Source: Clostridium sp. M62/1
GTDB lineage: Bacteria > Bacillota > Clostridia > Lachnospirales > Lachnospiraceae
NCBI RefSeq assembly: GCF_020736365.1
Contig: NZ_CP085988.1
Span: 479,501-543,500, forward strand
Reading direction: 5' to 3'
DNA length: 64,000 bases
The notes beneath the pieces are model-generated. The model searched no databases. It saw only the letters and a program-made list of their open reading frames with translations, and had not been told where the DNA came from. A program made the translations under genes and the position numbers. Shown here piece by piece: positions 24,455 to 43,081 of the stretch (within the stretch, counting starts at the first letter, position 1; the number at the start of each line of letters is the position of its first letter).

Positions 24455-24466
24455 GGAGGGAACTAT

Positions 24467-28338: not shown

Positions 28339-28350
28339 GAGGAGCTAAAA

Positions 28351-28719: not shown

Positions 28720-28812
28720 AATCCGCAATGCCTTGATTTTACTACAGTTTTGGCAAGTGAGCTTTCCCTTAGACTTTCCCTTATGTTATATCCTTTTCCC
28801 TTGTGTTACGAC

Positions 28813-28838
28813 ACCTCATAAGGGCAAAAACAAGGGAA
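28813..28838. repeat. attL of the IME (26-bp direct repeat)
   Basis: Starts ACCTCATAAGGGCAAAAACA and ends AGGGAA; identical to 43082-43107. Both copies are preceded by TTTCCCTTGT, which forms an inverted repeat with ACAAGGGAA at the end of the repeat, as expected for a tyrosine-recombinase core site. Three more TTTCCCTT copies lie at 28770-28808. Confidence 0.8.
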
Positions 28839-28943
28839 GCAAAATCCGGTAACAGCTAATAACATTATATAAATCACATAATCGGCTGGAACTGGTCAAG
28901 ATGCTTCTACAACTGAAACAGATAAGAGAAAGGACTTTGCAAT

Positions 28944-29186
28944 ATGAATATCGTTCATGCAGAATATAATAAATATCACAACATCATAGACATCAATTAT
29001 TACAATGGCTACATACTTCGGATTGACTGTGGCAAGGCAGAAGATGGATTGATTACTACTCCTAACTCTCAACGAATGTTGGATGCACTGGCGATTGACA
29101 ATCCACTAGAATATGCCCGTTTGTATCTTGATTCAGAAATGCAAGATTGGGTGAATGCGATGAATATGGAATGGTATAGCACTTGA
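28944..29186 (+). CDS. DUF6061-like small protein
   Basis: 80 residues: MNIVHAEYNKYHNIIDINYY, NGYILRIDCGKAEDGLITTPNSQRMLDALAIDNPLEYARLYLD. Small proteins of this type occur at the edges of Tn916-like and other Clostridia elements. RBS AGAGAAAGGAC. No catalytic motif seen. It is the only plus-strand gene at the left edge of the IME and faces the minus-strand cargo across a shared terminator. Confidence 0.65.
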   Translation: MNIVHAEYNKYHNIIDINYYNGYILRIDCGKAEDGLITTPNSQRMLDALAIDNPLEYARLYLDSEMQDWVNAMNMEWYST

Positions 29187-29272
29187 TAAAAGAACATAAA
29201 AATGAGAAGAAATCTGTCAAAAGTATTTCTATAAAATACGATATTTCTTTAGCCCTTCCATAAATAATGAAA

Positions 29273-29320
29273 TAGAGCCGATAACTCACAATCGAAATAA
29301 CGAGTGATTCATCGGCTCTA
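29273..29320. terminator. Bidirectional terminator
   Basis: TAGAGCCGAT pairs with ATCGGCTCTA over a 28-base loop, AT-rich on both sides. Lies between the DUF6061-like gene and the convergent 29367 gene. Confidence 0.65.
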
Positions 29321-29366
29321 TATTTTATGGTTATGGATATCATGAGTATCGCTTTATATGCAATTG

Positions 29367-29729
29367 CTATTTTGTTAATTCCCAATATTTATGACCCATA
29401 AAGAAGATTGTTAATTCGTTTTGATCTACTTCTATCTCAAAATTCACGCTATTATCTCTCTGTTCCACAAAAATCATATTTGAGGAAGATATGCTATATA
29501 ATGCATTGCCACAGGTAATACCCAATTCGGGCATATCTTTGTTTACAACAAGTCCTCCATTTTCTTGAAAGGTAAACACTTCCTCTGCATTTGCATTCTT
29601 CCATGTACCAATAATATTTTTTTTATTCTGAATGTGCTTTATTTTTCCAACACATACAACGATAAGTATAGCTACACTTACAATTAAAGCAATGCCTACA
29701 ACACTCTTTGCCAATTTCTTTTTATTCAA
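29367..29729 (-). CDS. Membrane-anchored small protein with lipocalin-like segment
   Basis: 120 residues. One N-terminal membrane helix (KSVVGIALIVSVAILIVVCV), then a short outside domain: IIGTWKNANAEEVFTFQENGGLVVNKDMPE. The GTWK...FxxxG pattern resembles lipocalin-like/DUF5640 domains that bind small molecules. No enzyme motif. Last gene on the minus strand of the cargo, 138 bp after its upstream neighbour, so possibly transcribed with it. Could be an immunity or sensor protein for the exported factor; inference only. Confidence 0.55.
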   Translation of the reverse strand: MNKKKLAKSVVGIALIVSVAILIVVCVGKIKHIQNKKNIIGTWKNANAEEVFTFQENGGLVVNKDMPELGITCGNALYSISSSNMIFVEQRDNSVNFEIEVDQNELTIFFMGHKYWELTK

Positions 29730-29867
29730 TTTCTATTATCTCCATTTTTAGTTTCTTTAAGATTGAATGATTCCATATTGCTTAATTCAGTATCTCCATG
29801 AATTTCTAACATTGATACGCTTCTCACAGGAAATAGAATAGGAGAGATTCATTCATAAATAATTAAA

Positions 29868-30551
29868 TCATTCATACTTACCTGAATTTGTAATGTTTTT
29901 CCATATTTTCTCATAATTATCTACTATAGTTTTTTCTGAGGTCAAAAATGCAAACATAGATATACTTGAATAGAGAGTTTCCGCCGAATCAAAAACCACA
30001 CAACTTTCATCATGAGTTAGATTTCTCTTTGAATATATTTCCGATACAGGCATAAATGAATTTTCTTCCTCTTTGGTGTATTTATACCCATCAATACATC
30101 CTAGATTTTTTAAAAATATTAAATAAGTATCTTCGGTCTTCAGATATTGCCATCCGTTAGTGTAAAATTCTTCACCTCTAACAAATGATACAGGTTCTAT
30201 AATGTAAATACAGTCACCTACTGAAAGATTAGCAGAATTATCCTTATAGATTTCCTCTATTTTTACCATTGTTTTTGTTGATCGTAAACTCATTTCACGA
30301 GAATTTGTTACAGTTATACGAGCTATTAAAGAAGAATCTTTTTCCATATCATCCAATGAGTAATTACTTTCATTGTTAAAGTAAGAAGTTTTCTGCCCTC
30401 CTGTATAGAAAATTTCCATAGCTGTATTTTCTGATAAAGCAATATCAGGATCATGAACCCCTGTAGTTGTTTTTATCCCAGTCTTTCCATAGAATAAGGC
30501 TGTCACCATACAAATGATTACAACACAGATAGTTAATACAAATTTCTTCAT
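29868..30551 (-). CDS. Exported protein, paralogue of the lipoprotein at 33687
   Basis: 227 residues with an N-terminal signal/anchor (FVLTICVVIICMVTALFYG). The domain SSLIARITVTNSREM ... TKTMVKIEEIYKDNSANLSVGDCIYIIEPVSF ... TYLIFLKNLG follows the same order as DYVFVAKVVSC ... TNYTIQVLENIKGEL ... SIYIFLAYAQEDG in the lipoprotein at 33687. The two are therefore likely homologous. Start ATG overlaps the ABC ATPase stop by one base, so it belongs to the exporter operon. The function is unknown. Confidence 0.6.
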   Translation of the reverse strand: MKKFVLTICVVIICMVTALFYGKTGIKTTTGVHDPDIALSENTAMEIFYTGGQKTSYFNNESNYSLDDMEKDSSLIARITVTNSREMSLRSTKTMVKIEEIYKDNSANLSVGDCIYIIEPVSFVRGEEFYTNGWQYLKTEDTYLIFLKNLGCIDGYKYTKEEENSFMPVSEIYSKRNLTHDESCVVFDSAETLYSSISMFAFLTSEKTIVDNYEKIWKNITNSGKYE

Positions 30552-31186
30552 TACATCAACTCCTTAATTTTACCAAATTCCATGCATATCTTCTCATCCG
30601 CTAATATTTCAATATCTTCTTTATTATGGCTTGTCAGTATAGTAATGGTATCATTCTTTTTTTCTTCCAATATACGTTCACGAAATAAATCAATGCTATG
30701 CTGATCCAATGCGTTAGTTGGCTCATCCAAAAGCAAAATTTTTGGATGTTCCATCAGTGCTTGACAAAGAGCTAGTTTTTGACGCATTCCTAATGAATAT
30801 TTATTTACTTTTTTCTTTGATTTGGGATCAAGACCAAAGTATATCATTATTTCATATATTTCTTCATCTGATACAATTCCTTTTATATTGGAAAGCATTT
30901 TCAAATTTTCAAATCCTGAATACATACTCCAAAAAGAAATATTTTCAATAACAGCTCCTAAATCTGGTAAAACATCCATATCTTTATGTAATGCCTTGTG
31001 ATTATATTTTATGTATCCTTTGTCTGTATTTATAAAACCTGCAATGGCTCTGAGTAGCATTGTTTTACCTGAACCATTTTTACCATATATTCCATATATT
31101 TTACCAGATTCAAATGTATAACTGATATCATCAAGCACTTTTTCACCTTTAATTGACTTTGAAATAGATTTTACATATAAATTCAT
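30551..31186 (-). CDS. ABC transporter ATP-binding protein of the agr-linked exporter
   Basis: 211 residues; the ATG at 31186 has GAGGTG at 10 bases, better than the ATG at 31195. Complete NBD: Walker A GIYGKNGSGKTMLLRAIAG, signature YSLGMRQKLALCQAL, Walker B ILLLDEPTNALD, H-loop ILTSHNKEDIEI. It is the bacteriocin/lantibiotic self-protection or export type (CcmA-like, one NBD per gene). With the two membrane proteins upstream it forms an ABC-2-type transporter. Gap to the permease gene is 15 bp. Confidence 0.85.
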   Translation of the reverse strand: MNLYVKSISKSIKGEKVLDDISYTFESGKIYGIYGKNGSGKTMLLRAIAGFINTDKGYIKYNHKALHKDMDVLPDLGAVIENISFWSMYSGFENLKMLSNIKGIVSDEEIYEIMIYFGLDPKSKKKVNKYSLGMRQKLALCQALMEHPKILLLDEPTNALDQHSIDLFRERILEEKKNDTITILTSHNKEDIEILADEKICMEFGKIKELM

Positions 31187-31200
31187 GGATATCATTCACC

Positions 31201-32001
31201 TCACAATATTTGTTTTTTTTCGCAAAGAAATTTACCTATCCACACCAAAACAGCGGATGATATAACTGAAATGAGACAGCTTGACTTAAAATTCAATAAA
31301 TCTATATTGCTTGTAGTCCATTCGTAATTTTCTTCGACATAATATATAATAAGCTTGTTATGCCAATTAAATAAAGGAATATGTAGCAAGGAATAATGCC
31401 AAATTTTCCATATAACATTTCCCATTGAAAAATAAAATCCACACACCATTACTGGAATAAAAAATACAATAAATGCAACGATGTATCCTATAATTGAATC
31501 TTTCCAAAATGAAAACAAATAACTAATCATTTGCAAATGAAAAATCTCTATCAATAGCATAAAAATAACTTTGAAATCTTCTAAGCCATTAGAGGTATGC
31601 TCTACAAAAAGAAAAAACAAATAATCGGAAACAACTACAATACAGTCACGTAATATCATTTTTATTAATATATCCTTATAAATTATGTGTTTTTTCCCAT
31701 AACGAGGAAGTAGAATTACCATGTTATCATTTGCATCATTAAATAAGTCCATTGTAAGATAACAAATCTCAAGGATAAACAAAATCGCAAAAAATGATAA
31801 AGATATAAGGTCAAACGAATGATCTATTAGTATTCCCCCAAAATATATTTGTGAACGTACTCCTTCTGTTATTGTAACCAGACTATTATGAAACCCCAAG
31901 TACACATTAGCATAAAAATATCTAATTACAAATGTTATAAGTGATACTAGTAAGCATTTTCCAACATTAACATTCAAAATTTTTTTCTTATATAACTTCA
32001 T
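31201..32001 (-). CDS. ABC-2-type membrane protein
   Basis: 266 residues with about six hydrophobic segments (for example LLVSLITFVIRYFYANVYLG, LISLSFFAILFILEICYL, IVAFIVFFIPVMVCGFYFSM). No conserved motif beyond the ABC permease look. It overlaps the upstream permease gene by 14 bp and is followed by the ATPase, so it is a likely subunit of the same transporter. Confidence 0.68.
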   Translation of the reverse strand: MKLYKKKILNVNVGKCLLVSLITFVIRYFYANVYLGFHNSLVTITEGVRSQIYFGGILIDHSFDLISLSFFAILFILEICYLTMDLFNDANDNMVILLPRYGKKHIIYKDILIKMILRDCIVVVSDYLFFLFVEHTSNGLEDFKVIFMLLIEIFHLQMISYLFSFWKDSIIGYIVAFIVFFIPVMVCGFYFSMGNVIWKIWHYSLLHIPLFNWHNKLIIYYVEENYEWTTSNIDLLNFKSSCLISVISSAVLVWIGKFLCEKKQIL

Positions 32002-32818
32002 AATTTTTTATTTTTCTCTGTATAATGCCAATACTTAATCCAAAAATAAGCAATATCAGAACAATTTCTCCTATTATATTTCCATGAACATTAGGCATAA
32101 TATAACCTTGTATAGAGAATTCATTTAGCCCAAAGACAGAAACAATCAAATTAAAAACAATATAGAATATAAACAAAGCACCAGGTATCTTTGCGAAATA
32201 TAGAACTTTCATTTTGTTATAATATGAAAGAGCATAAGCTAAGATAGCTAATCCCGAGCCAAAAATTCCGTAATTAAAAATGTATATTAGATTATATAAA
32301 GTTGGATGTTGCAATCTCACCATATCAAGAAAATTGTCAGCGTTATATGATACCAAACCTATAGCGTAATCAGGTTCTCCCCAAGCACTGTCATATCCAT
32401 GTATTGGATATGTCAAGTGGCATAATAATAAATTTATGAGCATTGGTATTGTTATTGTCAAAAAGGTTACAATCAGAATGCCAAATAATTTTCCTGCTAA
32501 ATATTTCTTTTTCCCGATTCTTTGAATAAGTAGGATTGAACTATTGCTTTTTTCTTCTCTTATTAAGGAAAGTGATGCAATAATTGTTGCATAAACAGGC
32601 AATAACAGATACATTATATATGGAATATATGCCGCTTCAGTGCCCTGTAATACGAAATTTTCATTTGCTGAACGAATAAATTGATAACTTTTTCCTATAT
32701 CATTTTTTACACATAAAATATACGAAGCAATATTTAAAATCATTAGAGCAATAAAAACAACTTTATATTCTGCACGATCAATACAATGTTTGATTTCTAT
32801 AAGAACCATTTTTTTCAT
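31988..32818 (-). CDS. ABC-2-type membrane permease
   Basis: ATG at 32818 (MKKMVLIEIKHCIDRAEYKV); an upstream TTG at 32830 is possible, and neither has a strong RBS. About 276 residues, six membrane segments: VVFIALMILNIASYIL, ILIVTFLTITIPMLINLLL and others. The LSLIREEKSNSSILLIQRIGKKKYLAGKLFG loop is the typical ABC-2 coupling region. Its start lies only 15 bp after a hairpin terminator, so expression probably depends on readthrough from the agrD promoter. Confidence 0.7.
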   Translation of the reverse strand: MKKMVLIEIKHCIDRAEYKVVFIALMILNIASYILCVKNDIGKSYQFIRSANENFVLQGTEAAYIPYIMYLLLPVYATIIASLSLIREEKSNSSILLIQRIGKKKYLAGKLFGILIVTFLTITIPMLINLLLCHLTYPIHGYDSAWGEPDYAIGLVSYNADNFLDMVRLQHPTLYNLIYIFNYGIFGSGLAILAYALSYYNKMKVLYFAKIPGALFIFYIVFNLIVSVFGLNEFSIQGYIMPNVHGNIIGEIVLILLIFGLSIGIIQRKIKNYEVI

Positions 32819-32832
32819 AATCTTTACCAAAA

Positions 32833-32862
32833 GGGCATAAACCCACGAAGAGGTTTATGCCC
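32833..32862 (-). terminator. Readthrough terminator between secreted-protein gene and exporter
   Basis: On the minus strand GGGCATAAACC, 8-base loop, GGTTTATGCCC, then TTTTGG. The 11-bp perfect stem with a short U-tract is placed just after the secreted-protein gene and before the permeases, as in many bacteriocin operons, where it lowers transporter expression relative to the peptide. Confidence 0.75.
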
Positions 32863-32872
32863 ATCCCTTCTG

Positions 32873-33292
32873 TTATCTAAAATCTACATTTCCACTTACA
32901 AATGCAGTTGATAATTGAGATTGATAATTTTCCATTCCCATACCGACCTGTGTGTTAGTAGAATTATAACCGCTCTTGGTAAAGATTAAATTACAAGATC
33001 CTGTTCCAACACCCTGCTTATACTTATTAGATATTTTACTCTTGCTGTTATTGACAGCCCAGAAATTTGCGTAAGAGGTATTGGTAATTGCTGTTACCTC
33101 ATTTGTGATGTAATCATCGGATGTTGTTTTTGCATGCATAGAGGTAAAGTTATTAGTCTTATTCAGTTTAAGTGCATAAGCGGTGTAAGATGCCGCCTGA
33201 GAATATGCTGCTGAAGAAAGAAATACACATCCTGCACAAAACAAACCAATACCTACTTTTGCAATCTTCTGTTTTAAACTTTTTAACATCAT
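32873..33292 (-). CDS. Small secreted protein (DUF2712-like), candidate QS-controlled effector
   Basis: ATG at 33292 follows GGGAGGA with 8-base spacing. 139 residues with a signal peptide (AKVGIGLFCAGCVFLSSAAY, cleavage after QAA). The mature part of about 105 residues is rich in Ser, Thr, Asn and Tyr: SYTAYALKLNKTNNFTSMH, ANFWAVNNSKSKISNKYKQG, VGTGSCNLIFTKSGY. This resembles DUF2712 and lactococcin-972-like secreted proteins, often next to an ABC exporter. It starts 18 bp after agrD and shares its promoter. A bacteriocin-like or matrix role is inferred, not shown. Confidence 0.62.
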   Translation of the reverse strand: MMLKSLKQKIAKVGIGLFCAGCVFLSSAAYSQAASYTAYALKLNKTNNFTSMHAKTTSDDYITNEVTAITNTSYANFWAVNNSKSKISNKYKQGVGTGSCNLIFTKSGYNSTNTQVGMGMENYQSQLSTAFVSGNVDFR

Positions 33293-33310
33293 AGTCAATT
33301 CCTCCCAATC

Positions 33311-33457
33311 TTATTTTTTTAACTGCGTTGGTACTTTTGGTTCATACAACAAACCACGGCACAATGAATTTGCATTACTTCGAGCAATAGCAGTCACTGC
33401 CTGAAGTACGAGACGGGCACTTTTCTGGGGTGCCTTGTTTACTTGCTTATTGTCCAT
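33311..33457 (-). CDS. agrD: AgrD-type cyclic lactone/thiolactone autoinducer precursor
   Basis: 48 residues after a strong RBS (AAGGAGGGGGGG). It starts MDNKQVNKAPQKSARLVLQA, an amphipathic leader, and ends CRGLLYEPKVPTQLKK. A Cys followed by a short hydrophobic loop and the conserved tail xxP(K/E)VPxxLKK is the hallmark of clostridial AgrD peptides. AgrB would cleave before the tail and cyclise the Cys to give the signal; the core is likely around ANSLCRGLLY. It lies on the strand opposite to agrCAB, 1.8 kb away, and heads the operon for the secreted protein and exporter. Confidence 0.85.
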   Translation of the reverse strand: MDNKQVNKAPQKSARLVLQAVTAIARSNANSLCRGLLYEPKVPTQLKK

Positions 33458-33530
33458 CGTTTTCACCCCCCCCCTCCTTAATTGTCTGACAATTACAGAC
33501 AACTTTATTTGTTTACCATGGTATGTGCTT

Positions 33531-33599
33531 AATATAACAGAGTATTTAATTTTTTCAATCCCTCTATGCACGAATGGTAGCCCAACATGCACGAACTGT
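33531..33599 (-). promoter_or_regulatory. LytTR (AgrA) boxes and promoter of agrD operon
   Basis: On the minus strand: box 1 ACAGTTCGT (33599-33591), box 2 ACCATTCGT (33578-33570), start-to-start 21 bp. After 11 bases comes -35 TTGAAA (33558-33553), 16 bases, -10 TATATT (33536-33531). Boxes match the AgrA/LytTR consensus ACMGTTNRT, and the placement just upstream of -35 fits activation. The same layout occurs at 35092-35160. Confidence 0.78.
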
Positions 33600-33622
33600 T
33601 CTACATATAGGTATAAAACCGA

Positions 33623-33661
33623 AAAGATGGCAGATAGGTTAAGCACCTACCTGCCATCTTT
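33623..33661 (-). terminator. Terminator of the protease-lipoprotein operon
   Basis: AAAGATGGCAGATAGGT and ACCTACCTGCCATCTTT form a 17-bp stem with one mismatch and a 5-base loop; U-rich sequence follows on the minus strand. It separates the lipoprotein gene from the agrD promoter. Confidence 0.78.
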
Positions 33662-33686
33662 AATCTATATATTTCAGAAATAATGA

Positions 33687-34358
33687 TTAATTATTGTCAG
33701 TCTCATATATAGATTTATAACGCTCTCGATCAACTGGAATAATCTCATTATCATTAGCATCTTTATATGTAATAAACTCATCGTATTCTGTAACTGATTT
33801 TTCCTCTGAGACAGAATTAATAGAATACATATTCGAATCGTTACACATTACATTTGAATTTGGACCAGAAATTAGTAACGAACCATCCTCTTGTGCATAT
33901 GCCAAAAAGATATAAATGGAATTTTCGGAAGGCAGTGAATCATTCTCAAACAGATAAATAGCATCTTGTTTTTCTGAAATTCCGCCTTGTTTAACAATAG
34001 GAATAGGTTTATCTGTAATAAGTTCACCTTTTATATTTTCGAGAACCTGAATAGTATAATTAGTGTAAGGCGAACCGACCTCCTTAGGATTTCCTTTTTC
34101 ATCTTCAGTCGTTATAACATTTCGATACTCGGTTCCATCGCAACTGACAACCTTTGCTACAAATACGTAATCACAGATACCAACAGCTTCGCGAATGTTA
34201 TCAGTATCATATACAAAAGATGCGTGCATCTGGTGGATTGGCAAGTTAGATACATTTGTATTCAGTTGACTTGCATTATTTTTGGATGCACATCCTGTAA
34301 AAAACATTCCTACGATAAGAACAATAGACAAAATACCATAGATACTTGATTTTTTCAT
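33687..34358 (-). CDS. Lipoprotein of the QS-controlled protease operon
   Basis: 223 residues; signal MKKSSIYGILSIVLIVGMFF with lipobox FTGC. Mature domain: DYVFVAKVVSCDGTEYRN, TNYTIQVLENIKGEL, PIPIVKQGGISEKQDAIYLF, NSIYIFLAYAQEDGSLLISG. It resembles the protein at 29868 in order and spacing. No enzyme motif recognised. It begins 15 bp after the matrixin protease gene, so both are made together. It might be an inhibitor, substrate or anchor for the protease. Confidence 0.68.
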   Translation of the reverse strand: MKKSSIYGILSIVLIVGMFFTGCASKNNASQLNTNVSNLPIHQMHASFVYDTDNIREAVGICDYVFVAKVVSCDGTEYRNVITTEDEKGNPKEVGSPYTNYTIQVLENIKGELITDKPIPIVKQGGISEKQDAIYLFENDSLPSENSIYIFLAYAQEDGSLLISGPNSNVMCNDSNMYSINSVSEEKSVTEYDEFITYKDANDNEIIPVDRERYKSIYETDNN

Positions 34359-34373
34359 AGCGTTCTCCCTCCC

Positions 34374-34895
34374 CTAATAATTATTATATGCGGCATCATA
34401 TGAATCTTTATCATTTTGAGATAATGCCTGCGTACTAGTATGTCCCGTAATTGCTGCATCCATAACATCTGTTGAAGTACTGTGATCCAACCCTAATGCA
34501 TGTCCCAATTCATGTGTCGCTACATTCTGTTTTTTACTATTACTATAACCGCTCATATAATAGGTATTGAGTTCAATTTTACCACTAGAATATGTCATGC
34601 CTGCCCATCCATTCGAAGCATTGACATCGCTTACGTATACATCTTCTACAACAAAAGCACTGTCTTTTCTGATTACTCCAGATTTATATGCATTCCATGT
34701 GGCAGCCCCAGTGTTAATATAACTCATGTAAGTGCTGTTTCCGTCATAGTCTAGATGTTTGCCAGAATCAACAAGATCCCATGTTTGTACATAAGCTTGT
34801 GCAAATGCCGTAATAGGAAATAGCATTGCTATAGCCATTAAAGTTATAATGCTATACAATAAATGATTTTTTAAAACAGATTTTTTAAAATGCAT
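34374..34895 (-). CDS. Secreted matrixin-type (M10) zinc metalloprotease
   Basis: 173 residues; signal peptide (YSIITLMAIAMLFPITAFA, cleavage after AFA). The catalytic motif is complete: VATHELGHALGLDHS (HExxHxxGxxH), followed by the Met-turn STDVMDAAI. The domain is short, with no prodomain or cysteine switch, as in bacterial matrixin-like enzymes. RBS AAGGAGT. The only promoter signal upstream is the LytTR pair at 35092-35160, so secretion of the protease should be quorum controlled, like exoproteases under agr in Staphylococcus. Confidence 0.85.
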   Translation of the reverse strand: MHFKKSVLKNHLLYSIITLMAIAMLFPITAFAQAYVQTWDLVDSGKHLDYDGNSTYMSYINTGAATWNAYKSGVIRKDSAFVVEDVYVSDVNASNGWAGMTYSSGKIELNTYYMSGYSNSKKQNVATHELGHALGLDHSTSTDVMDAAITGHTSTQALSQNDKDSYDAAYNNY

Positions 34896-35091
34896 ACTCC
34901 TTCACTCCTTTTCAATCATGTAACAACGGTTATCTTCAATTATTCTTAAAGGTTATCTTTATGAAAATTGAAACGCAACACATACTAGTACACATTATAT
35001 ATCCTGTTAATATTCCTAAAGTACGACATCTTATCATCTCCACTCCATATTATAGATTCTCAGAATACTTAAGATGTAGTAGTATACCTTG

Positions 35092-35160
35092 AATATAACA
35101 AAATCTTTATACTTTTCAATACCTCTATGCATGAATGGTAGCTCACTATGCACAAACGGT
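35092..35160 (-). promoter_or_regulatory. LytTR (AgrA) boxes and promoter of the protease operon
   Basis: On the minus strand: ACCGTTTGT (35160-35152), ACCATTCAT (35139-35131), 21 bp apart; 11 bases; TTGAAA (35119-35114); 16 bases; TATATT (35097-35092). Every spacing equals that at 33531-33599. The start codon is about 190 bp downstream, so the 5' UTR is long. Confidence 0.78.
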
Positions 35161-35171
35161 AGCATATTATG

Positions 35172-35200
35172 TTGTGTACCTACTTTATTGATGATAAAAT
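35172..35200 (+). promoter_or_regulatory. Probable sigma-A promoter of agrCAB
   Basis: TTGTGT, 17 bases, TAAAAT, 33 bp before the agrC start. It is back to back with the LytTR boxes for the protease operon, so AgrA bound there could also affect agrCAB. Confidence 0.45.
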
Positions 35201-35232
35201 ATGACGGAGAATGATTAAAGGAAGTGGTAGCT

Positions 35233-36585
35233 ATGCTATATATTGACTCAATATGGGAATATATTGTTAATTTCTTAGAACTGGCATTGTTTATAATATT
35301 TATCCATAAAAAATTGCGTATTCGAGCAAATTATAAACATCAAGCAGTTTTGATGTTTCTTTTCGTATCATTTCAGTTTGCTGTGTTATGCACGCTGAAT
35401 AAAATGGGAATATCATCCTACAGCACTTTGATGTCATCTTGTGTTTTGGACATTGGATATGCAGTATTGTTCTATCGTGATAGTATAATTCGCCGTATCT
35501 TTTGGGGCTTTTCGTATTCCATCATTTGCTTAGTTGCAGAACAGATTTCGTTCTTTATTCCCGTTACTCTTTATAAAGGAGCGTCTCTGGAGCTATTATT
35601 AGGTGGAACATTACGGAAGCCATATACCATGTTATATTTGGCAATGATAGCTGTTTTTGTCTTGTTATTTCATTCTATTGGAAACAAAGACATATCTCTT
35701 TCACCGTTCCAAAAAGTTGCATATATTTTCATCGCAATTTCTGGACTTGCAATCGGGCACTACATATTAAGGCTGACTTTGGAATCTGTTGATAAATTTG
35801 GTGATTCATCCTTTTCAGCTAGGCTATCATTGGTTGACTTGTTTTTTATTATTTTATTTTTAGTATTGATGCTATACATATACCAGCTAGGTTATTCAAA
35901 AGAAGAAAACATACGATTACTGGAAGAACAAAAGATTTATGAGCTGGAAAGGACTGAGTTCAATAGCTTATCTGAGACAACTGAACGATTACGAAAAATG
36001 AAACATGATATGCAGATTTATGTGGATGCAATCAACGTATTAGCAAAAGACAAGAAATGGGATGAACTTATAGCATATACAGAGCAATACCATAACACTC
36101 TTGCAACTACGCAAAGTGCCATAGCAACGGGAAATATTGCTATTGACTGCATACTTACCGCAAAACTTGATTATGCTGAAAAACACGGAATTAAGACAGA
36201 ATATTCTATTATGGCTCCTGAAAATTTTCCGCTTGATTCTGTTGAGCTTTCATCCATACTTGGAAATATATGGAATAATTCCATTGAAGCAGGAGAAAGA
36301 CTTATAATCTCTGATCCAACCGAGCATCCATACATTTATTTTTATATTAAACCTTACCAGAATATGATACTGATTCACATTGAAAATAATTATGATGGTG
36401 TGATAAAAGGTAGCATTGATGGAGACATTTTGAGTGTTAAACAAGGAAAAGAACATGGACTTGGGATAAGACGAGTAAAAGAGCTTGTAGAAAAGGCAGA
36501 TGGCGTATTGCAGATTACATCTGATAACAAAATTTTTTCCGTACATATTATGATACCGGATAAGGAGAATAACAAACTACTATGA
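35233..36585 (+). CDS. agrC: AgrC-like membrane histidine kinase (GHKL family)
   Basis: ATG at 35233 follows AAAGGAAGTGG; the GTG at 35224 lies inside this RBS. 450 residues: six or seven membrane segments to about residue 225 (peptide-sensing domain), a coiled linker EENIRLLEEQKIYELERTEF, the phospho-acceptor region LRKMKHDMQIYVDAI (His), N-box LGNIWNNSIEAGERL and GLGIRRVKELVEKADG (G-box). This is the HPK10/GHKL architecture of AgrC. It should bind the cyclic peptide made from AgrD. The stop overlaps the next gene by 4 bp. Confidence 0.85.
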   Translation: MLYIDSIWEYIVNFLELALFIIFIHKKLRIRANYKHQAVLMFLFVSFQFAVLCTLNKMGISSYSTLMSSCVLDIGYAVLFYRDSIIRRIFWGFSYSIICLVAEQISFFIPVTLYKGASLELLLGGTLRKPYTMLYLAMIAVFVLLFHSIGNKDISLSPFQKVAYIFIAISGLAIGHYILRLTLESVDKFGDSSFSARLSLVDLFFIILFLVLMLYIYQLGYSKEENIRLLEEQKIYELERTEFNSLSETTERLRKMKHDMQIYVDAINVLAKDKKWDELIAYTEQYHNTLATTQSAIATGNIAIDCILTAKLDYAEKHGIKTEYSIMAPENFPLDSVELSSILGNIWNNSIEAGERLIISDPTEHPYIYFYIKPYQNMILIHIENNYDGVIKGSIDGDILSVKQGKEHGLGIRRVKELVEKADGVLQITSDNKIFSVHIMIPDKENNKLL

Positions 36586-37316
36586 AAATGAAAATAACCA
36601 TACTTGAAGATTCTGTGATCGAATCAGAACGGCTGAAAAATGGAATAAGAAAATACGGGCAGCAATATGATTGGGATATTGAAATTGACGAATACGAATC
36701 GGGCGAAGAATATTTTTCAAAAAATTCTGAAGGCACAACTATACAGGCTTCAGCATTTTTCCTTGACATACAAATGGGGCAAATGAATGGAATTGAGGTT
36801 GCTAAACGCCTTCGTGAATCTGGTTATCAAGGTATTATTGTATTTTTAACAGCTTTTAGAGAATATGTATTCCGAGGATATGAAGTCAGAGCTTTAAACT
36901 ACTTGCTAAAACCCGTCAAGGAAAATACTCTTTTTCTGTGTTTGGATGAAATCGCGAAGGGGTTATCTAATAATACCTACATATACCGAAACAAGCAGGA
37001 AATTGTAAGTATTCCCTATGCAGATATATTGACATTTTCGAGCAGATTACATTATGTGGATATATTGACCGTAGACGGCAAATGCTATGAACAAATGTCT
37101 ACCCTAAATAAGATTATTGTCCATTTGCCAAGTGAATTTATCCGAACCCATCGTTCTTATATTGTAAATATGGCACATATCTATCGTATTACATCAGGAA
37201 CGATTGAATTGTCAAATCATCTAACTACACAAATCGCACGTTCTTATTCCAAAGACGTGATAAGTGCTTTTGCCAAATATACAACAAGATTTGATACAAG
37301 CGGGGATTTTGAATGA
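36582..37316 (+). CDS. agrA: AgrA-like LytTR response regulator
   Basis: 244 residues. Receiver: ITILEDSVIESERLKNG (acidic pocket), AFFLDIQMGQMNGIEVA (phospho-Asp), FLTAFREYVFRGYEVRALNYLLKPV (Thr, Lys). LytTR DNA-binding domain from about residue 135: YADILTFSSRLHYVDILTVDGKCYEQMSTLNKI, FIRTHRSYIVNMAHIYRI. LytTR proteins bind direct repeats with 21-22 bp period; two such pairs occur nearby, at 33570 and 35131. Its start and stop both overlap neighbours, as in translationally coupled operons. Confidence 0.86.
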   Translation: MKMKITILEDSVIESERLKNGIRKYGQQYDWDIEIDEYESGEEYFSKNSEGTTIQASAFFLDIQMGQMNGIEVAKRLRESGYQGIIVFLTAFREYVFRGYEVRALNYLLKPVKENTLFLCLDEIAKGLSNNTYIYRNKQEIVSIPYADILTFSSRLHYVDILTVDGKCYEQMSTLNKIIVHLPSEFIRTHRSYIVNMAHIYRITSGTIELSNHLTTQIARSYSKDVISAFAKYTTRFDTSGDFE

Positions 37317-37879
37317 TTACGAAGTGGGCTACATCTATTGCTAATAAGTTAGCAGAACTATCCGGGGAGGATGTTTCTGCGGATCAATTAGAAATATACA
37401 TATATGGCTTAGAATGTTTTTTGAATACTTTTATAACCATAGTGTTATTGTTCGTATGGGGAGTTTTATCACATACACTCGGCTATACCCTAATTTGGGT
37501 AATTACCTTTTCATTGTTACGACATTATACCGGAGGTGCCCATGCTCCAACGCAGTTAACATGTATCTTAGGCAGCTTTTTTCTCGGTTGTCTTGATAAG
37601 TGGGCTATAATCTATTTAAAGCCAACTGTACTAGGATATTTGATACTTGTCCTTATGTGTATATTATTTGCACCTATAAGTAACCATAAAATATGTTTAA
37701 CCACCAAACAAAAATGGATACATAAACTTATTTCTGTGATAATTGTTAGCATTGGATTTCTGCTGTTTTATAAAATTGGAAACACGAAGATGAATACCAC
37801 ATTGTTTTATTCCTTTTTCTGCGTAATCATTCTTATGATAGTCGAAACAATTAAAAATCTAATGAGACACTTTAAATAG
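37313..37879 (+). CDS. agrB: AgrB-like autoinducer-processing membrane peptidase
   Basis: 188 residues with about five membrane segments. The catalytic pair of AgrB is present: LLRHYTGGAHAPTQLTC has His and Cys seven residues apart, as H77 and C84 in S. aureus AgrB. The ATG overlaps agrA by 4 bp. It should cut AgrD at its tail and form the ring. It is the last gene of agrCAB and is followed by a strong bidirectional terminator. The order C-A-B with agrD elsewhere differs from the usual agrBDCA. Confidence 0.87.
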   Translation: MITKWATSIANKLAELSGEDVSADQLEIYIYGLECFLNTFITIVLLFVWGVLSHTLGYTLIWVITFSLLRHYTGGAHAPTQLTCILGSFFLGCLDKWAIIYLKPTVLGYLILVLMCILFAPISNHKICLTTKQKWIHKLISVIIVSIGFLLFYKIGNTKMNTTLFYSFFCVIILMIVETIKNLMRHFK

Positions 37880-37903
37880 CAGGATGACTTTTCATAAATA
37901 TTC

Positions 37904-37940
37904 AAAAAAGATAAAGAATTTGATGGTCTTTATCTTTTTT
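37904..37940. terminator. Bidirectional terminator between agrB and relaxase
   Basis: AAAAAAGATAAAGA pairs with TCTTTATCTTTTTT around a 9-base loop; A-run on one side and T-run on the other serve both strands. Confidence 0.82.
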
Positions 37941-37953
37941 GAATTTAATTAGA

Positions 37954-39519
37954 TTATCTAGCTCCTCTGTCTGATGGCGAACGATAGTTAAAATCTCTGT
38001 CCTGTTCCCGTTTCTGAACTTCTGCCTGTTTTTCTGCCAGCTTTCGATGGATTGAGTTTTCTCCATACTTGGAGTTCCATTCCTTGTTTGCTTTGACATA
38101 GGATTCATACTCGGACTTGCCTTGTTTATAGACTTGCAGGAACGCATCTACCGTTGGATATTTGTAATCCTGCACGATATGGGATAATCCCTGCTTCATA
38201 ATCTTAATCGTTTCTGCGTATTTGTTAGACTGTGCCTGCAATTCCTTTCGTTTCTTTCCTTGGAATAATCCTGTACAGTTCTTCAAATCCTCGTCAATAA
38301 GGTCTTTTTTCACTTCCTGCGTATGAATGGCTCTGTTTTGTCGTTTAAGTTTCTCCATAATCTCTTCAAGTCGCATCTCATAATCGTGTGCCAGCTCAGA
38401 CATTCTTGGTCTTGGCGGAATAACGGTCTTTTCTGCGGTAGTAGTAGCAGGTGCTTTGAATGGTTGGGTCACAGCAGGAATTGTCTGATTGTCTGTCTGT
38501 GTAACGGATGGAGCTGGTTGTTTCTCTTGTTTTTCATTTCTTCGCTCCATAAGGTCGGAGATTCTGGCTTTCTGTTGTTCCTGTTTCTGTATCAGCAACT
38601 TTATGAGTTCTTTTAACAGCTCGATTGCCCGAAAGATAATCATAAACAAAAGCTCCGGATGATTGCCATACTTGTGAATGGATTCCTTAATCGGAGTTGA
38701 AATCTGTTCCTGCTTTACCTTTAAGATTTCCTTTCGCTCCATCCCCGATACCAAAGCGTGATCCACAGTACGATTCCAGTCCTGTATGACCTTATTATTG
38801 AGTGTAATCTTATCTGCCTTTGGATTGTTCTTACCGATTTTCTTAGTGGCAAGATAGACATCCCCACGCTTGAATGCAGACAGCTTTTCTTTCTCATCTT
38901 TGACAAGTCCGTTGATGACATCGGTATAAAATACCTTGACCTCATCTAAGAAATGTTCCTGCTTAAAGCGAGCGTCCTTGATGGTAAACATCTGTCTTTC
39001 GTAGACCTCACCTTTCTTGATCACCTTACACCTTTTACGGATAGTTCCATTCTCGTCTAGGATTTCTTTCTTGGTACGAACATGATTACCTTTCTCATCA
39101 TAGAACATATTTCTGGTGGCAATCTTTTCTATCGGTTCGTCAAGATAATTTCGTTCTGCAAAGATAAGATGGATATGATAATTCGTCTTTCGTTTGTTAT
39201 GATGGAGTGCTGCAATACAATCAACACCATACCGACTTTTGAATTTATCCGTCATATATTTTAATAGTCCGTCTGGCGGATAATCCACAAAGGATTCCGG
39301 CAGGGCAATGATAAATTCTCTTGCTTCGATACATTTTCCCTCTGTACCGCTTTTCTTAAATTCTGCCTGATTGCACTTGGCAAGTTCTGTCCAAAATTTT
39401 CGGTCTGTGGTTTCATATACCGCATAGAGATTTTCCTGTTTTTTGTCACTGGAGATATAATAGATTCTTCCACGAACATTATGGAGCTTTGACATCTGCA
39501 CAAATGAATTTCTTGGCAT
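37954..39519 (-). CDS. mobA: MobA/MobL-type (MOBQ) relaxase
   Basis: 521 residues. The relaxase domain is N-terminal: MPRNSFVQMSKLHNVRGRIYYISS, REFIIALPESFVDYPP, and the metal-binding His in TNYHIHLIFAERNYL (motif III, HxH). The remainder is helical (MSELAHDYEMRLEEIMEKLK, KKRKELQAQSNKYAETI) and probably binds accessory proteins. The nucleophile would be Tyr in the first 25 residues (RIYYIS). It nicks oriT and leads the strand into the recipient through a helper mating pore. RBS AAAGGAGG. The putative oriT lies 145 bp upstream of its start. Confidence 0.82.
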   Translation of the reverse strand: MPRNSFVQMSKLHNVRGRIYYISSDKKQENLYAVYETTDRKFWTELAKCNQAEFKKSGTEGKCIEAREFIIALPESFVDYPPDGLLKYMTDKFKSRYGVDCIAALHHNKRKTNYHIHLIFAERNYLDEPIEKIATRNMFYDEKGNHVRTKKEILDENGTIRKRCKVIKKGEVYERQMFTIKDARFKQEHFLDEVKVFYTDVINGLVKDEKEKLSAFKRGDVYLATKKIGKNNPKADKITLNNKVIQDWNRTVDHALVSGMERKEILKVKQEQISTPIKESIHKYGNHPELLFMIIFRAIELLKELIKLLIQKQEQQKARISDLMERRNEKQEKQPAPSVTQTDNQTIPAVTQPFKAPATTTAEKTVIPPRPRMSELAHDYEMRLEEIMEKLKRQNRAIHTQEVKKDLIDEDLKNCTGLFQGKKRKELQAQSNKYAETIKIMKQGLSHIVQDYKYPTVDAFLQVYKQGKSEYESYVKANKEWNSKYGENSIHRKLAEKQAEVQKREQDRDFNYRSPSDRGAR

Positions 39520-39663
39520 AGCGATTTCCTCCTTTCCCAGTTTTGATTTTGGAAAAGAGGACAGATAAGATAGATGAGATGTGAGTAGTAAACTTTCCCT
39601 GTGAGCGAGTGCATAGGCACTCGTCTTGCGAACACATCCGCCTTGTGGCGGCTAAGCCTCGCA

Positions 39664-39718
39664 GAGCGAAATACACAGAGTACAAAACGAAGTTTTGTGC
39701 GATGGGTGTATTTCGCTC
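39664..39718. other. Putative oriT (MOBQ type)
   Basis: Inner hairpin ACAAAAC-GAA-GTTTTGT (39682-39698), enclosed by GAGCGAAATACAC (39664) and GTGTATTTCGCTC (39706), a 13-bp stem. The layout AACGAAGTT, then TGCG and a G/T-rich stretch, matches MOBQ oriTs of pIP501/pGO1 type (AACGAAGTTACTGCG then the nic). Two smaller hairpins at 39607-39622 and 39638-39651 flank it. Position just upstream of the relaxase fits. Confidence 0.62.
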
Positions 39719-40285
39719 TCAAACGCCGAGGGCTTGCTTATGAAGTTCACTTTTAGCTGTAACTGTTCCCTCAGCACCTAATTTTGTGCCTTTAATGGCA
39801 CACTTTTTATGTGCCGTATCCGGCACTCCCTTTTCTTAACAGAAATGCTAGAAGATTGCTATGAAAATCAGCGAAACAATAGACGAATCCGTTAGCACTT
39901 TTGCCTTAACAATAGCATTGTTCTATTATTCAGACTTTTTAGCAAAAACCGTAGAAACAGTAGAAGTCTGCTATTAAAATCGAAAAAACAATAGCACGAT
40001 TCGTTAGCATTTTTGCCCTGACAATAGCATTGTGTTACTTCGCTTACTTTTAAACTGTGTCTGGCAAGGAAGTGGTAGTAAAAGTTCCTATTAAATTTCA
40101 TTTTTAATAGTGCATTGTTTTATTACATTTTGATTTTAATAGAGCTTTTTACTATTAACTCTTTGAAAATGTACCCCATAGATTGGACACTCAAAATCAT
40201 AGTAGCGTACACTTTTTGTCATAGGTCGGACAGCTTTTTTCATAGCTACACTTGGTATGACTTCTCACAGCACTTTTTGTAAGTT

Positions 40286-40435
40286 GGGTGGACTTGTCCT
40301 ACCAGTCGGCTTCACTTGGGTGGATGGTTGCACCCACTTCATTTTCTGGCTTGGGTGGACTATTCATAACACCTTTTGCATCTTGGGTGGACTTGTCCTA
40401 CCAACAAGCTATAACTGGGTGGACGATTGCACCCA
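40286..40435. repeat. GGGTGGA iterons with nested palindromes
   Basis: GGGTGGA occurs at 40286, 40318, 40353, 40385 and 40417, spaced 32, 35, 32 and 32 bp, about three helical turns. A larger 99-bp unit repeats the 19-mer GGGTGGACTTGTCCTACCA (40286, 40385). The palindrome GGACTTGTCC appears at 40290, 40389 and 40484, and TGGGTG-8-CACCCA hairpins at 40317 and 40416. The rest of 39720-40570 holds no gene; imperfect AACAATAGCA repeats lie at 39900-40030. Could be a replication origin, oriT accessory sites or Xis/Int arms. Confidence 0.6.
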
Positions 40436-40573
40436 TTCACATCCATCTTGTCCTCATTTTCCAAAAGTTCTGGTTGTATCTGAGGACTTGTCCGTGATAT
40501 AATCTATTTGCGTGTAGGTATATCATGGCTTTTAGTCAGATACATACCAGAGGGATGGTCTTAGGACTGTCCC

Positions 40574-40807
40574 TTATTCATTTTTCATTGTTCCCTTGAC
40601 CGCTTTTACTGCGTGTCTGTCTCGTAAATCCTTCCCCTCATTGAGAATCAGAAACTCGTCTAATCGTTCCCTGCGGATTAAGATTTTTCTTCCCACTCTA
40701 AGGATAGGCAGCTTTTCCCATTCCACAAGATTTCTAAGAGTGTTTCTTCCGATACCTGTATAGTCGGCAGCTTCTTCAATGGAGAGAGCAAACTTTAATT
40801 CTGTCAT
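40574..40807 (-). CDS. xis: Excisionase (Xis), Tn916-type
   Basis: 77 residues: FALSIEEAADYTGIGRNTLR is the MerR-like winged-helix DNA-binding motif of excisionase family proteins, followed by PILRVGRKILIRRERLDEFL. The family bends attachment-site DNA and steers the integrase toward excision. The tail (DLRDRHAVKAVKGTMKNE) is longer than usual. It lies on the minus strand, opposite to the regulator and integrase, so a divergent control region (40808-41044) separates them. Confidence 0.85.
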   Translation of the reverse strand: MTELKFALSIEEAADYTGIGRNTLRNLVEWEKLPILRVGRKILIRRERLDEFLILNEGKDLRDRHAVKAVKGTMKNE

Positions 40808-40894
40808 TCGATCACCTCATTCCTGCGTAGGATTACAAGTCTTGTATATCAGAGGATGTTCCTTTTTGAAGAAAGGATTAGCCTTTTTTAAAAC

Positions 40895-41013
40895 TTGCGT
40901 TACGCAATTCTGATTAAAGTATATATCTTTTATAACGCTATGTCAAGCCTTACGAAATTCTATCATCTTTTATAGAATTGCGTATTGCAATATATCGTGT
41001 TATGTGGTATAGT
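40895..41013. promoter_or_regulatory. Divergent control region with operators and promoter
   Basis: Promoter for the regulator: TTGCAA (40985), 17 bases, TATAGT (41008). Inverted repeats: TTGCG-TTA-CGCAA (40895-40907), AATTCTAT-8-ATAGAATT (40956-40979) and ATTGC-GTATT-GCAAT over the -35 region. These look like operators for the Cro/CI-type regulator, which would repress its own gene and xis. Confidence 0.6.
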
Positions 41014-41044
41014 AATGACATACCGAAAAAGGAGGTTCGCAAGT

Positions 41045-41668
41045 ATGTTAAAAGATAAAGAATTGCGAAAGACAATCGGTAGCAGAGCAAAAAGCCGTAG
41101 ACAGGAGTTAGGATTGAACCAGCCTTATGTCGCTGAAAAAATGGGCGTGACAGCCTCAACCATTCAGAGATACGAAGCAGGAACGATTGATAACACCAAG
41201 AAAATGACCTTAGAAGGTCTGGCAGATGCACTTCATGTATCTGTGGAATGGCTGAAAGGTGAGACGGACGAATACGAAACAGACATTACGGATAAAAGAG
41301 AATTACAGATTCGTGATGTGATGACTTCCATTCTGAATAAGCTCCCTTATGATATGGAACAGTCCGAAAGTGATTTTTCCAAAGACCTGCTACTACTGAT
41401 GTTACGGGAATACGAGCTGTTCGTGGATTCGTTCCAGTTCGCTTGTAAGAATTTCAAAGGAAATACAGATAACAAAATGCTCGCCCAGACAATGGGGTTT
41501 GAATCCAATAAGGAATACAATGAGATTATGTTCCTTAGAGAAATCACCCACACCGTCAACGCATTGAACGATATGGGCGATATTGTAAGACTGTATTCTA
41601 AGAATCCTGAGACAGCGAAAAATCGACTAGCCAATCTTTTATCAGAAAAAGATCCCGATTCGGTATAG
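41045..41668 (+). CDS. Cro/CI-family transcriptional regulator of the IME
   Basis: ATG at 41045 follows AAAAAGGAGG; an upstream in-frame ATG at 40985 lies in the promoter. 207 residues. HTH_3 domain near the N-terminus: IGSRAKSRRQELGLNQPYVAEKMGVTASTIQRYEAGTIDN, then LEGLADALHVSVEWLKGETD. The C-terminal part is helical, likely for dimerisation or inducer response. It is placed like the regulators that control xis and int in related elements. Confidence 0.85.
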   Translation: MLKDKELRKTIGSRAKSRRQELGLNQPYVAEKMGVTASTIQRYEAGTIDNTKKMTLEGLADALHVSVEWLKGETDEYETDITDKRELQIRDVMTSILNKLPYDMEQSESDFSKDLLLLMLREYELFVDSFQFACKNFKGNTDNKMLAQTMGFESNKEYNEIMFLREITHTVNALNDMGDIVRLYSKNPETAKNRLANLLSEKDPDSV

Positions 41669-41751
41669 ATAGGCAGACGGAGCTATGATATACTTACACG
41701 CAAGAAGCATTTCACCAGTTCCGATTGCCGATATCGAAAGGAGAAACGATT

Positions 41752-43050: not shown

Positions 43051-43081
43051 AATCGAATAAGAAAAACTTTCCCTTGTAGAT

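Follow-up and report, generated by a model that had tools for sequence, protein, structure and literature searches.

Agr quorum sensing is mostly described as a species' four-gene operon. The Staphylococcus aureus system (agrBDCA, RNAIII) combines four components, a LytTR regulator, positive feedback and two divergent inducible promoters, as summarised in part in PMC8748961. For the streptococcal sil system (SilA-SilB, SilCR, SilD-E), PMC2766830 describes the two-component genes on one non-induced unit, the signal gene on a second unit that is read in the opposite direction and induced by the peptide, and more induced payload promoters; SilA sites consist of 10 bp repeats with an 11-bp spacer. 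On the Clostridioides difficile phage phiCDHM1, the agr3 locus places agr genes on a mobile element subject to horizontal transfer and comprises agrC, agrB and agrD without a response regulator (PMC3901668). An agrD without a neighbouring agrB is agrD2 of C. autoethanogenum, which accompanies agrC2 and presumably relies on an agrB1 located elsewhere (PMC8748961). Among titles and abstract openings, a scope outside which most subscription papers fall, no agrD-led payload operon set apart from agrCAB on a mobilizable element was found.

The locus described here shares features with all four systems. It lies in a stretch of 64,000 nucleotides from Clostridium sp. M62/1, referred to as the window, and we read it, with a probability of roughly 0.7, as a complete agr circuit that is cargo of a small mobilizable element, with feedback via the signal gene alone and a swappable secreted payload. 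The central genes are as follows:

33311..33457, minus strand: agrD, 48-aa AIP precursor (TIGR04223 quorum_AgrD, 40.5 bits, cut-off 19; 39.5 bits in the whole-genome search)
33687..34358, minus strand: lipoprotein paired with the matrixin
34374..34895, minus strand: small secreted matrixin-type metalloprotease (M10; PF00413 Peptidase_M10, 36.4 bits, cut-off 24)
35224..36585, plus strand: agrC, receptor histidine kinase (GHKL ATPase domain, 66.9 bits, cut-off 22)
36582..37316, plus strand: agrA, response regulator (LytTR and Response_reg domains)
37313..37879, plus strand: agrB, AIP-processing membrane peptidase (PF04647, 95.3 bits, cut-off 23)

A sequence-only reading had recognised AgrD, AgrB, AgrC and AgrA, had put agrCAB on the plus strand and agrD on the minus strand some 1.8 kb away with a matrixin and a lipoprotein gene between them, and had seen agrD as split from agrB and first in an output operon. 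All of this was borne out: every named gene was found in its place, AgrD, AgrB, AgrC and the matrixin score above the cut-offs, agrD lies 1.77 kb from agrC and 3.86 kb from agrB on the opposite strand, and the matrixin (34374-34895, minus) and lipoprotein (33687-34358, minus) genes stand in between. The agr type is evident from an AgrD-family precursor, an AgrB with the His and Cys residues and a GHKL kinase encoded together with a LytTR regulator, the two genes overlapping (35224-36585 and 36582-37316). AgrB H77 and C84, which we take to be the catalytic positions, are invariant in the 12 sequences compared. AgrB would process AgrD, whose predicted ring C-R-G-L-L is followed by YEPKVPTQLKK with a PxxP motif. 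Against the AgrA equivalog model NF046049, the agrA product scored 48.3 bits (cut-off 400), which weakens orthology to that model's AgrA and leaves the function claim as it is. The usual agr layout, agrB and agrD as neighbours on one strand, is absent.

In S. aureus the four agr genes form one induced operon, whereas the operator in the window would drive only agrD and the payload, with agrD apart from agrB on the other strand; an RNAIII-like effector was not noticed in the window. The sil peptide is processed by the ABC transporter of the inducible unit (PMC2766830); the window has an AgrD-type precursor, with AgrB on the other unit. Judged by its genes, the locus is sil-like in layout and not a member of the sil family: the peptide belongs to the AgrD family, and no peptidase domain was found by Pfam in the 214-aa ATPase. 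Unlike the agr3 locus of phiCDHM1 (PMC3901668), the window has a full set of circuit genes, in a split arrangement and carried by a mobilizable element. Unlike agrD2, the window agrD is the first gene of a payload operon that points away from its own agrCAB.

Analysis of the intergenic regions revealed the following elements:

33531..33599, minus strand: control region of agrD, with a direct repeat of 21-bp period and a promoter, TTGAAA-16-TATATT
35092..35160, minus strand: second control-region copy ahead of the matrixin gene, repeat and promoter
35172..35200, plus strand: agrCAB candidate promoter, TTGTGT-17-TAAAAT
32833..32862, minus strand: terminator-like hairpin between the secreted-protein gene and the ABC genes
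33623..33661, minus strand: terminator-like hairpin 3' of the lipoprotein gene

The two 69-bp control regions are 81% identical and precede agrD and the matrixin-lipoprotein pair, respectively. Their 21-bp direct repeats and promoter look as expected for a LytTR regulator, and AgrA would presumably bind the repeats; the period equals the 10 bp plus 11 bp spacer given for SilA sites in PMC2766830. A 39-bp pattern drawn from both sites had 0 expected matches in 100 window shuffles, and a search of the genome with the 19-bp operator core returned two exact matches, which are the two control regions, and two with 3 mismatches. The latter pair was rejected as further operators; both are without a second repeat and were taken as chance. 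Upstream of agrD, the repeat period recurs in the window, L018, L022, L024 and the distant L067 and L070 (0 to 2 of 200 shuffles equally good in each) and is absent from L068 (95/200). The period alone is weak for the matrixin copy (24/200) and for L027 (22/200).

The candidate agrCAB promoter agrees with the consensus at 8 of 12 positions, under the threshold of the promoter scan, and promoter-like matches in the region were not commoner than chance (44 found, 56.5 expected from shuffles). Of the eight agrC/agrB-side regions, it is present in those of the window, L018, L022 and L024 (spacer 16 bp in L024) and not in those of L027, L067, L068 and L070. This promoter is probably not induced.

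In the mechanism that we propose, agrC, agrA and agrB would be made from a promoter without AgrA-type repeats in an activating position, so that receptor, regulator and processing enzyme would stand ready. External signal would act through AgrC and AgrA on the common AgrA-type operator and promoter on the opposite strand, raising agrD, and thus more signal, together with the payload behind it. In the window, the first payload unit would consist of a small secreted protein plus an ABC transporter; the second, served by the other operator copy, would be the secreted matrixin protease with its lipoprotein. That agrD heads an operon of a secreted protein and an ABC exporter, as proposed before, stands for the first part, agrD being first and the secreted protein next, and less well for the second: the hairpin at 32833-32862 precedes the ABC genes, so their co-transcription with the secreted-protein gene may be partial and the claim that they join the induced unit is weaker.

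The remaining payload and cargo genes are as follows:

32873..33298, minus strand: small secreted protein, first payload gene; signal peptide and ~105 aa, predicted beta-sandwich
31988..32818, minus strand: ABC-2 permease (PF12679, 30 bits, cut-off 27.2)
31201..32001, minus strand: permease-like membrane protein; no family match, role from position
30551..31195, minus strand: ABC transporter ATPase; best NCBIfam model lantibiotic protection TIGR03740, under its cut-off
29868..30551, minus strand: exported protein of 227 aa, cargo; no family
29367..29729, minus strand: small exported or membrane-anchored protein (our reading), cargo; ORF with a DUF5640 match under the cut-off

For the payload, the most likely role is that of a secreted protein that antagonises others or shapes the niche, accompanied by self-protection. 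Its narrower form as a bacteriocin-type weapon comes close to an even chance: neighbours would be harmed by the small secreted protein, the producer would be shielded by the ABC transporter and lipoproteins, and the circuit would let element carriers attack only when numerous. Four unrelated cargo sets (window, L018/L024, L022 and L013/L027) each begin with a small secreted protein, followed by an ABC ATPase and a pair of larger membrane proteins; exported proteins or lipoproteins are also present in three of these sets, the signal peptides and most permeases being assigned by our own reading. The ATPases of the window and L013 score best against the lantibiotic protection model TIGR03740 (146.8 and 172.7 bits), and that of L022 against TIGR03608 of the lactococcin-972 type (197.7 bits). 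However, all these scores are under the curated cut-offs (309.75 for TIGR03740, 254.85 for TIGR03608), such ATPases match ~190 models each, and for the ATPase in the L018 cargo other models rank first. For the window's secreted protein, no family (Pfam, NCBIfam) and no significant fold match was found; the secreted payload proteins as a group are without a family, the one that was folded gave no significant match, and no toxicity is known for them.

A payload that acts on the host or on common nutrients instead of on rivals, with the matrixin and the secreted protein as public goods, is unlikely, if less so than the readings discussed below. It has a parallel in enterococci, where gelatinase is under Fsr control.

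The genes behind agrD differ between otherwise similar loci. Homology between the window and L018 ends at window position 33299, 12 bases beyond agrD; the agr proteins are 92-98% identical and the proteins next to agrD 20%, a value equalled in 171/200 shuffles of the mature part. Conversely, L018 and L024 have the payload in common (first protein 73.8%) despite AgrB being 56.6% alike. These comparisons show that the secreted-protein/ABC module behind agrD was exchanged, more recently than the divergent layout arose. The matrixin-lipoprotein pair also occurs without the operator, on G268:C4 and G101:C25: a scan of the 400 bases 5' of these matrixin genes gave no operator, the best matches having 20 (G268) and 19 (G101) mismatches of 37, against 1 in the window. 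The pair was inserted between the two operator copies as a later event. The operator with agrD would then be a fixed socket, and the genes behind it exchangeable. In G268, a further agr-like locus, only distantly related, lies 14 kb away from the matrixin gene; it was noticed through an AgrB match, and its agrA and agrC are 28-29% identical (L083).

That the circuit is cargo of a mobilizable element, as previously claimed, was upheld by an integrase and excisionase, defined ends and copies at different sites in different genera. The element is laid out as follows:

28665..43182, no strand assigned: integrative mobilizable element, 14,518 bp, with ends TTTTGATACC... and ...TTATACAA
28810..28838, plus strand: left subterminal direct repeat, 97% identical to the right copy
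43079..43107, plus strand: right subterminal direct repeat, 97% identical to the left copy
37954..39519, minus strand: putative relaxase of MobA/MobL type (25.5 bits, slightly short of the Pfam cut-off, 26.7)
40574..40807, minus strand: Tn916-type excisionase (PF09035, 36.6 bits, above cut-off)
41039..41668, plus strand: HTH regulator of the element backbone, conserved in L018, L098 and L099
41749..43050, plus strand: tyrosine integrase (PF00589, 106.6 bits, above cut-off)

Eight loci (window, L015, L016, L017, L018, L019, L020 and L023) have the same element ends and differ in the flanks at one or both ends, and when the window flanks are joined with 1, 4 or 7 bases trimmed, a DUF6262 reading frame stays open. 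The 29-bp direct repeats were rejected as attachment sites, given that the flank comparison places the left end ~145 bp and the right end ~75 bp outside them; they may be integrase arm sites. Fusicatenibacter saccharivorans and Roseburia faecis have near-identical copies, inserted at sites other than that in the window. L016 (G118) matches the window over 14,546 bp at 99.94% and L017 over 14,529 bp at 99.98%, both with different flanks, and one chromosomal window gene has no DNA match in either of their genomes. The element may still be transferred today, in which case a recipient might gain both signal and response, as proposed before. Pfam scans of its 17 presumed genes gave no conjugation family, so a helper would be needed. 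AgrB had no match in viral_contigs (profile) or phages, the operator pattern and the relaxase had none in viral_contigs, and the element DNA had no near-identity match in plasmids. Elements of G148 and G008 (L098, L099) have the same backbone (integrase 74-76%, excisionase, HTH regulator, relaxase and left-end homology); unlike in the window, their cargo slot holds other genes, and no agr query matched there.

The circuit had been called rearranged. As a description of an uncommon layout this holds, since in a family survey, among the 92 agrD genes for which an agrB was listed no more than 10 kb away, only 7 had it on the opposite strand, compared with 73 in the usual adjacent one-strand layout. 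As a one-off event it does not: agrD is divergent from agrCAB in all 10 informative loci, i.e., those that hold the stretch among the 15 related loci found. Related loci keep the layout even where AgrB identity falls to 38%, and it recurs in more distant loci. It is thus a conserved state of this agr clade and probably ancestral. A second agrD, which the earlier account had named as a finding that would overturn it, was not found when a home-made AgrD profile was run over the 15 related loci; one clear match was obtained in each of 10 and none in 5, all others having E values of at least 0.048. The profile was run on 26 loci, and of its 28 training loci L039 came out empty.

A decayed or dormant circuit, with agrD and agrCAB as uncoupled remnants and the layout as drift, is very improbable. 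Metagenome protein sets do hold truncated or fused AgrD and AgrB forms, the backbone is broken in L019 and agrB in L023 and L028; yet all four agr genes are full length in the window, L016 and L017, conservation extends to the AIP core and to the His and Cys of AgrB, and most loci keep the operator. Several of the truncated forms resemble, by our reading, frameshifts or assembly joins. Selection against the circuit was likewise considered from these forms and rejected, as assembly can give rise to the frameshifts or unrelated tails seen in several of them.

That the window agrD is served by a different AgrB, and the window AgrB serves another peptide, is barely credible: an agrD without its own agrB does occur (33 of 125 in the family survey lacked a listed one within 10 kb, an upper bound; agrD2 in PMC8748961), but the genome holds one AgrB and one convincing AgrD (TIGR04223 search), and the two co-occur in every informative relative. 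A second, weaker AgrD match reached 18.4 bits, or 19 with its neighbours and so formally at the cut-off, and lies, as we read it, antisense inside a lipoprotein gene; a third reached 12.3 bits, under the cut-off.

Returning to the mobile circuit with its swappable payload, a ring of CRGLL or CRGLM is predicted in 28 of 29 readable relatives, and its carriers presumably come from humans, mice and the rumen, judging in part by record names. A tentative extension, to which we give somewhat less than an even chance, is a mobile signal-gated cargo socket, in which a near-invariant AIP is kept across several Lachnospiraceae species while the payload behind agrD is exchanged. If so, carriers of different species would hear the same signal and release different secreted products; with a common AIP and differing payloads, the element would sense the density of its own carriers across species, not that of any single species. 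The window circuit would be a portable gut module, with feedback apparently only via the signal gene and outputs swapped at a defined junction. Whether mobile elements conduct quorum sensing of their own across gut species thereby becomes testable, and the module offers a natural template for payloads under signal control. In the AgrB cluster there are 734 member sequences, which suggests that the circuit is not rare.

The agr genes and their immediate neighbours are distributed over both strands of the element as follows:
35224-36585, plus strand, agrC, with the expected domains
36582-37316, plus strand, agrA, with the expected domains
37313-37879, plus strand, agrB, with an AgrB score exceeding the curated cut-off
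33311-33457, minus strand, agrD, with an AgrD score exceeding the curated cut-off
32873-33298, minus strand, gene of a small secreted protein, starting 12 bases past agrD
33687-34358, minus strand, lipoprotein gene, between agrD and agrC
34374-34895, minus strand, matrixin gene, between agrD and agrC
Four-base overlaps join agrC to agrA and agrA to agrB. On the minus strand, agrD is followed by the secreted-protein gene, two permease-like genes, the gene of an ABC ATPase and those of two exported proteins. Both the separation of agrD from agrCAB and its position at the head of secreted-protein and ABC genes, as described in the sequence-only reading, were thus confirmed. The 3.92-Mb genome, in which the window occupies G000:C1:479501-543500, contains one AgrB (PF04647), and its best AgrD match (TIGR04223) is the agrD of the window at 39.5 bits. 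A second match, scoring 18.4 bits or, with neighbours, 19 and so nominally equal to the cut-off, is on the antisense strand of a putative lipoprotein gene; a third, at 12.3 bits, is under the cut-off. Because AgrB is single and only one AgrD match is strong, the two proteins are without another credible partner in this assembly, which is rated 98% complete.

An AgrB alignment, searched against the species-genome collection, hit 35 stretches, 15 of which encode a relative. In all ten loci holding both genes (L016, L017, L018, L019, L020, L022, L023, L024, L027 and L028), agrD is divergent from agrC; of the other five, L015 begins in the operator, L021, L025 and L026 begin inside agrA or agrB, and in L029 both agrA and agrB are fragmentary. 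A second agrD next to agrB, named earlier as an argument against a split circuit, was sought with a six-frame AgrD profile and found in none of the 15 loci. By this comparison, the split is the regular arrangement in a clade of agr loci, some of them mobile, with payload exchange behind the signal gene. The arrangement noticed earlier stands as an observation, but not its description as rearranged, since a fresh rearrangement does not agree with the divergent agrD of the relatives.

In a family survey, AgrD was detected at E <= 0.001 in 71 of 299 genomes, with at least 125 genes, and 150 AgrB were among the matches listed; only the best candidates per genome were scored for either protein, and both counts are lower bounds. 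A listed AgrB lay within 10 kb of 92 of the 125 agrD genes, leaving 33 (an upper bound) with no listed AgrB. In 73 cases it shared the strand of agrD at no more than 400 bp, in 12 it shared the strand at a greater distance, and in seven it was on the opposite strand, namely:
G000 (the window genome) and G118 (another genus of the same family), one element
G268, locus L027
G164 (L067), agrCAB divergent from agrD, then a secreted protein with YD repeat
G151 (L070), agrB and agrA divergent from agrD, on a contig too short for agrC
G002 (L068), a secreted protein behind agrD
G087, a different layout with agrD antisense inside the agr cluster
Further on in the divergent locus of G164 (L067:8217-14293), an RHS-like-looking protein has a chitinase-domain match below the cut-off. 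Genome G054 (e.g., L074-L077) has at least 13 AgrD and at least two AgrB among the matches listed, with many orphan agrD; in the four loci read, agrD lies behind putative kinase and regulator genes, and none of the listed agrB is closer than 10 kb.

A ring followed by a conserved tail was recognised in 29 of 46 AgrD relatives, the ring being CRGLL in 26, CRGLM in two and CRVL in one; the remaining 17 sequences are truncated or fused within the ring or after it, with CRGLL still visible in four. L024, whose AgrB is about 57% identical to that of the window, keeps CRGLL, and L013/L027, at 38%, has CRGLM; the ring of L067 differs. Conservation of the predicted signal ring is suggestive only, because the 46 relatives are mostly close kin. 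The P-x-x-P motif, named as an AgrB site in PMC3901668, is present in AgrD.

Between the window and the Petralouisia muris element (L018), the agr proteins are 92-98% identical, and DNA homology ends at window position 33299, 12 bases past agrD; the proteins next to agrD share 20% over 114 aa and are unrelated, since shuffling the mature part gave an equally good value in 171 of 200 trials. The L018 payload has its relative in L024, with 73.8% identity for the first protein and 77.4% for the ATPase; AgrB of L024 is only 56.6% identical. A third payload is found in L022 and a fourth in L027/L013. Related payloads beside diverged AgrB, together with the end of homology, indicate that genes were swapped just behind agrD, which remained with the regulatory module.

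The four payload sets have a common plan of a small secreted protein, an ATPase and two larger membrane proteins, with exported or lipoproteins in three sets. Our first guess is antagonism to other bacteria, to which the ATPases of three sets point by leaning to bacteriocin protection or export models, although all these scores are below cut-off and the secreted protein of the window (32873-33298), a predicted beta sandwich, gave no significant match. A role in host or nutrient use is our second guess.

Two copies of a 69-bp stretch, 81% identical, lie at 33531-33599 upstream of agrD and at 35092-35160 upstream of the matrixin gene, both reading toward minus-strand genes. Each contains a promoter (TTGAAA-16-TATATT, extended -10) and a pair of imperfect direct repeats whose period is 21 bp (ACAGTTCGTG / ACCATTCGTG and ACCGTTTGTG / ACCATTCATG). 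This period is the geometry of LytTR regulators, by analogy with which the stretch is a putative AgrA operator; for SilA, sites of 10-bp repeats with an 11-bp spacer are described in PMC2766830. Scored for periodicity only, the agrD copy is exceptional, being equalled by 2 of 200 shuffled sequences, unlike the matrixin copy, which 24 of 200 equal. The repeat also precedes agrD in L067 (2 of 200) and L070 (0 of 200) and, weakly, in L027 (22 of 200), and was not found there in L068 (95 of 200). An exact copy of the 19-bp core occurs at two places in the genome; two sites with three mismatches were rejected as further operators, the second repeat being absent at both. For agrCAB, one promoter was proposed:
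35172-35200, plus strand, candidate agrCAB promoter, TTGTGT-17-TAAAAT
It agrees with the consensus at 8 of 12 positions and is kept in four of eight regions compared (the window, L018, L022 and, with a 16-bp spacer, L024), not being seen in L027, L067, L068 and L070; its placement is a guess from conservation only.

Among the 15 relatives, the matrixin-lipoprotein pair is confined to L015, L016 and L017; in L026, a 55-residue part of the matrixin is weakly matched. Two further genomes of the 299 hold the pair, at G268:C4 (77% and 62%) and G101:C25 (47% and 33%), where the operator was not found, the best sites differing from it at 20 and 19 of 37 positions. G268 also has a distant agr-like locus, 14 kb from the pair. 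The agrC-agrD interval has one control region in L018, L022, L024 and L027 versus two in the window, exactly bordering the inserted pair, which we read as probable capture under a duplicated operator.

With this layout, on a reading that we hold probable at roughly 70%, agrCAB would be steadily made, agrD and payload would be inducible, and amplification would proceed through the precursor amount alone. Anatomy, conservation, payload exchange and copies at different sites are shown, each regulatory and chemical step being one that we infer from sequence. An element-bearing cell would always be able to sense and process, and signal and payload would rise together. The sil layout, as described in PMC2766830, works alike, but the window circuit is made of agr parts.

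Comparison with an F. saccharivorans contig, Roseburia faecis M72 and an uncultured relative placed the element ends at 28665 and 43182; the alignments cover 14,546 bp at 99.94% for the first and 14,529 bp at 99.98% for the second. Flanking DNA differs at one or both ends among eight loci (the window, L015, L016, L017, L018, L019, L020 and L023). When the window flanks were joined, trims of 1, 4 or 7 bases gave a continuous DUF6262 frame and other trims from 0 to 8 stopped earlier; the element therefore interrupts a DUF6262 gene. It encodes a tyrosine integrase, a Tn916-type excisionase and a MobA/MobL-type relaxase scoring just under the cut-off, and conjugation families had no match among the 17 presumed element genes scanned. 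A chromosomal gene of the window (56530-57879, putative glucose-6-phosphate isomerase), taken as a control for transfer, has a 75% DNA match in P. muris and none in the genomes of F. saccharivorans and R. faecis, a single-gene result that gene absence would equally give. Backbone relatives in genomes G148 and G008 share the integrase (74-76%), excisionase, HTH, relaxase and left end; agr queries found no match in them, and their cargo slot holds other genes, which supports the agr circuit being cargo. With the defined ends and differing flanks, this upholds the earlier claim of cargo status on a mobilizable element.

By eye, the slot in G148 (L098:10005-14436) has two genes resembling aminoglycoside phosphotransferase and acetyltransferase, and that in G008 (L099:11182-11868) a putative SdpI-like membrane protein. 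The agr element appears nested in another mobile element (23336-28719, 43213-43605), in which three adjoining genes (23336-27926) look like tyrosine recombinases of Tn554-like type (judged against PF00589 for the third), followed by DUF6262 genes, one of them the interrupted one. Upstream of the relaxase gene, imperfect direct repeats at 39841-40152 and 40251-40435 (99 and 86 nt, 74-76% identical, plus a shorter pair) are a possible transfer or replication origin. In L019 (10648-12726), an element copy carries an internal deletion that fuses the relaxase and integrase genes.
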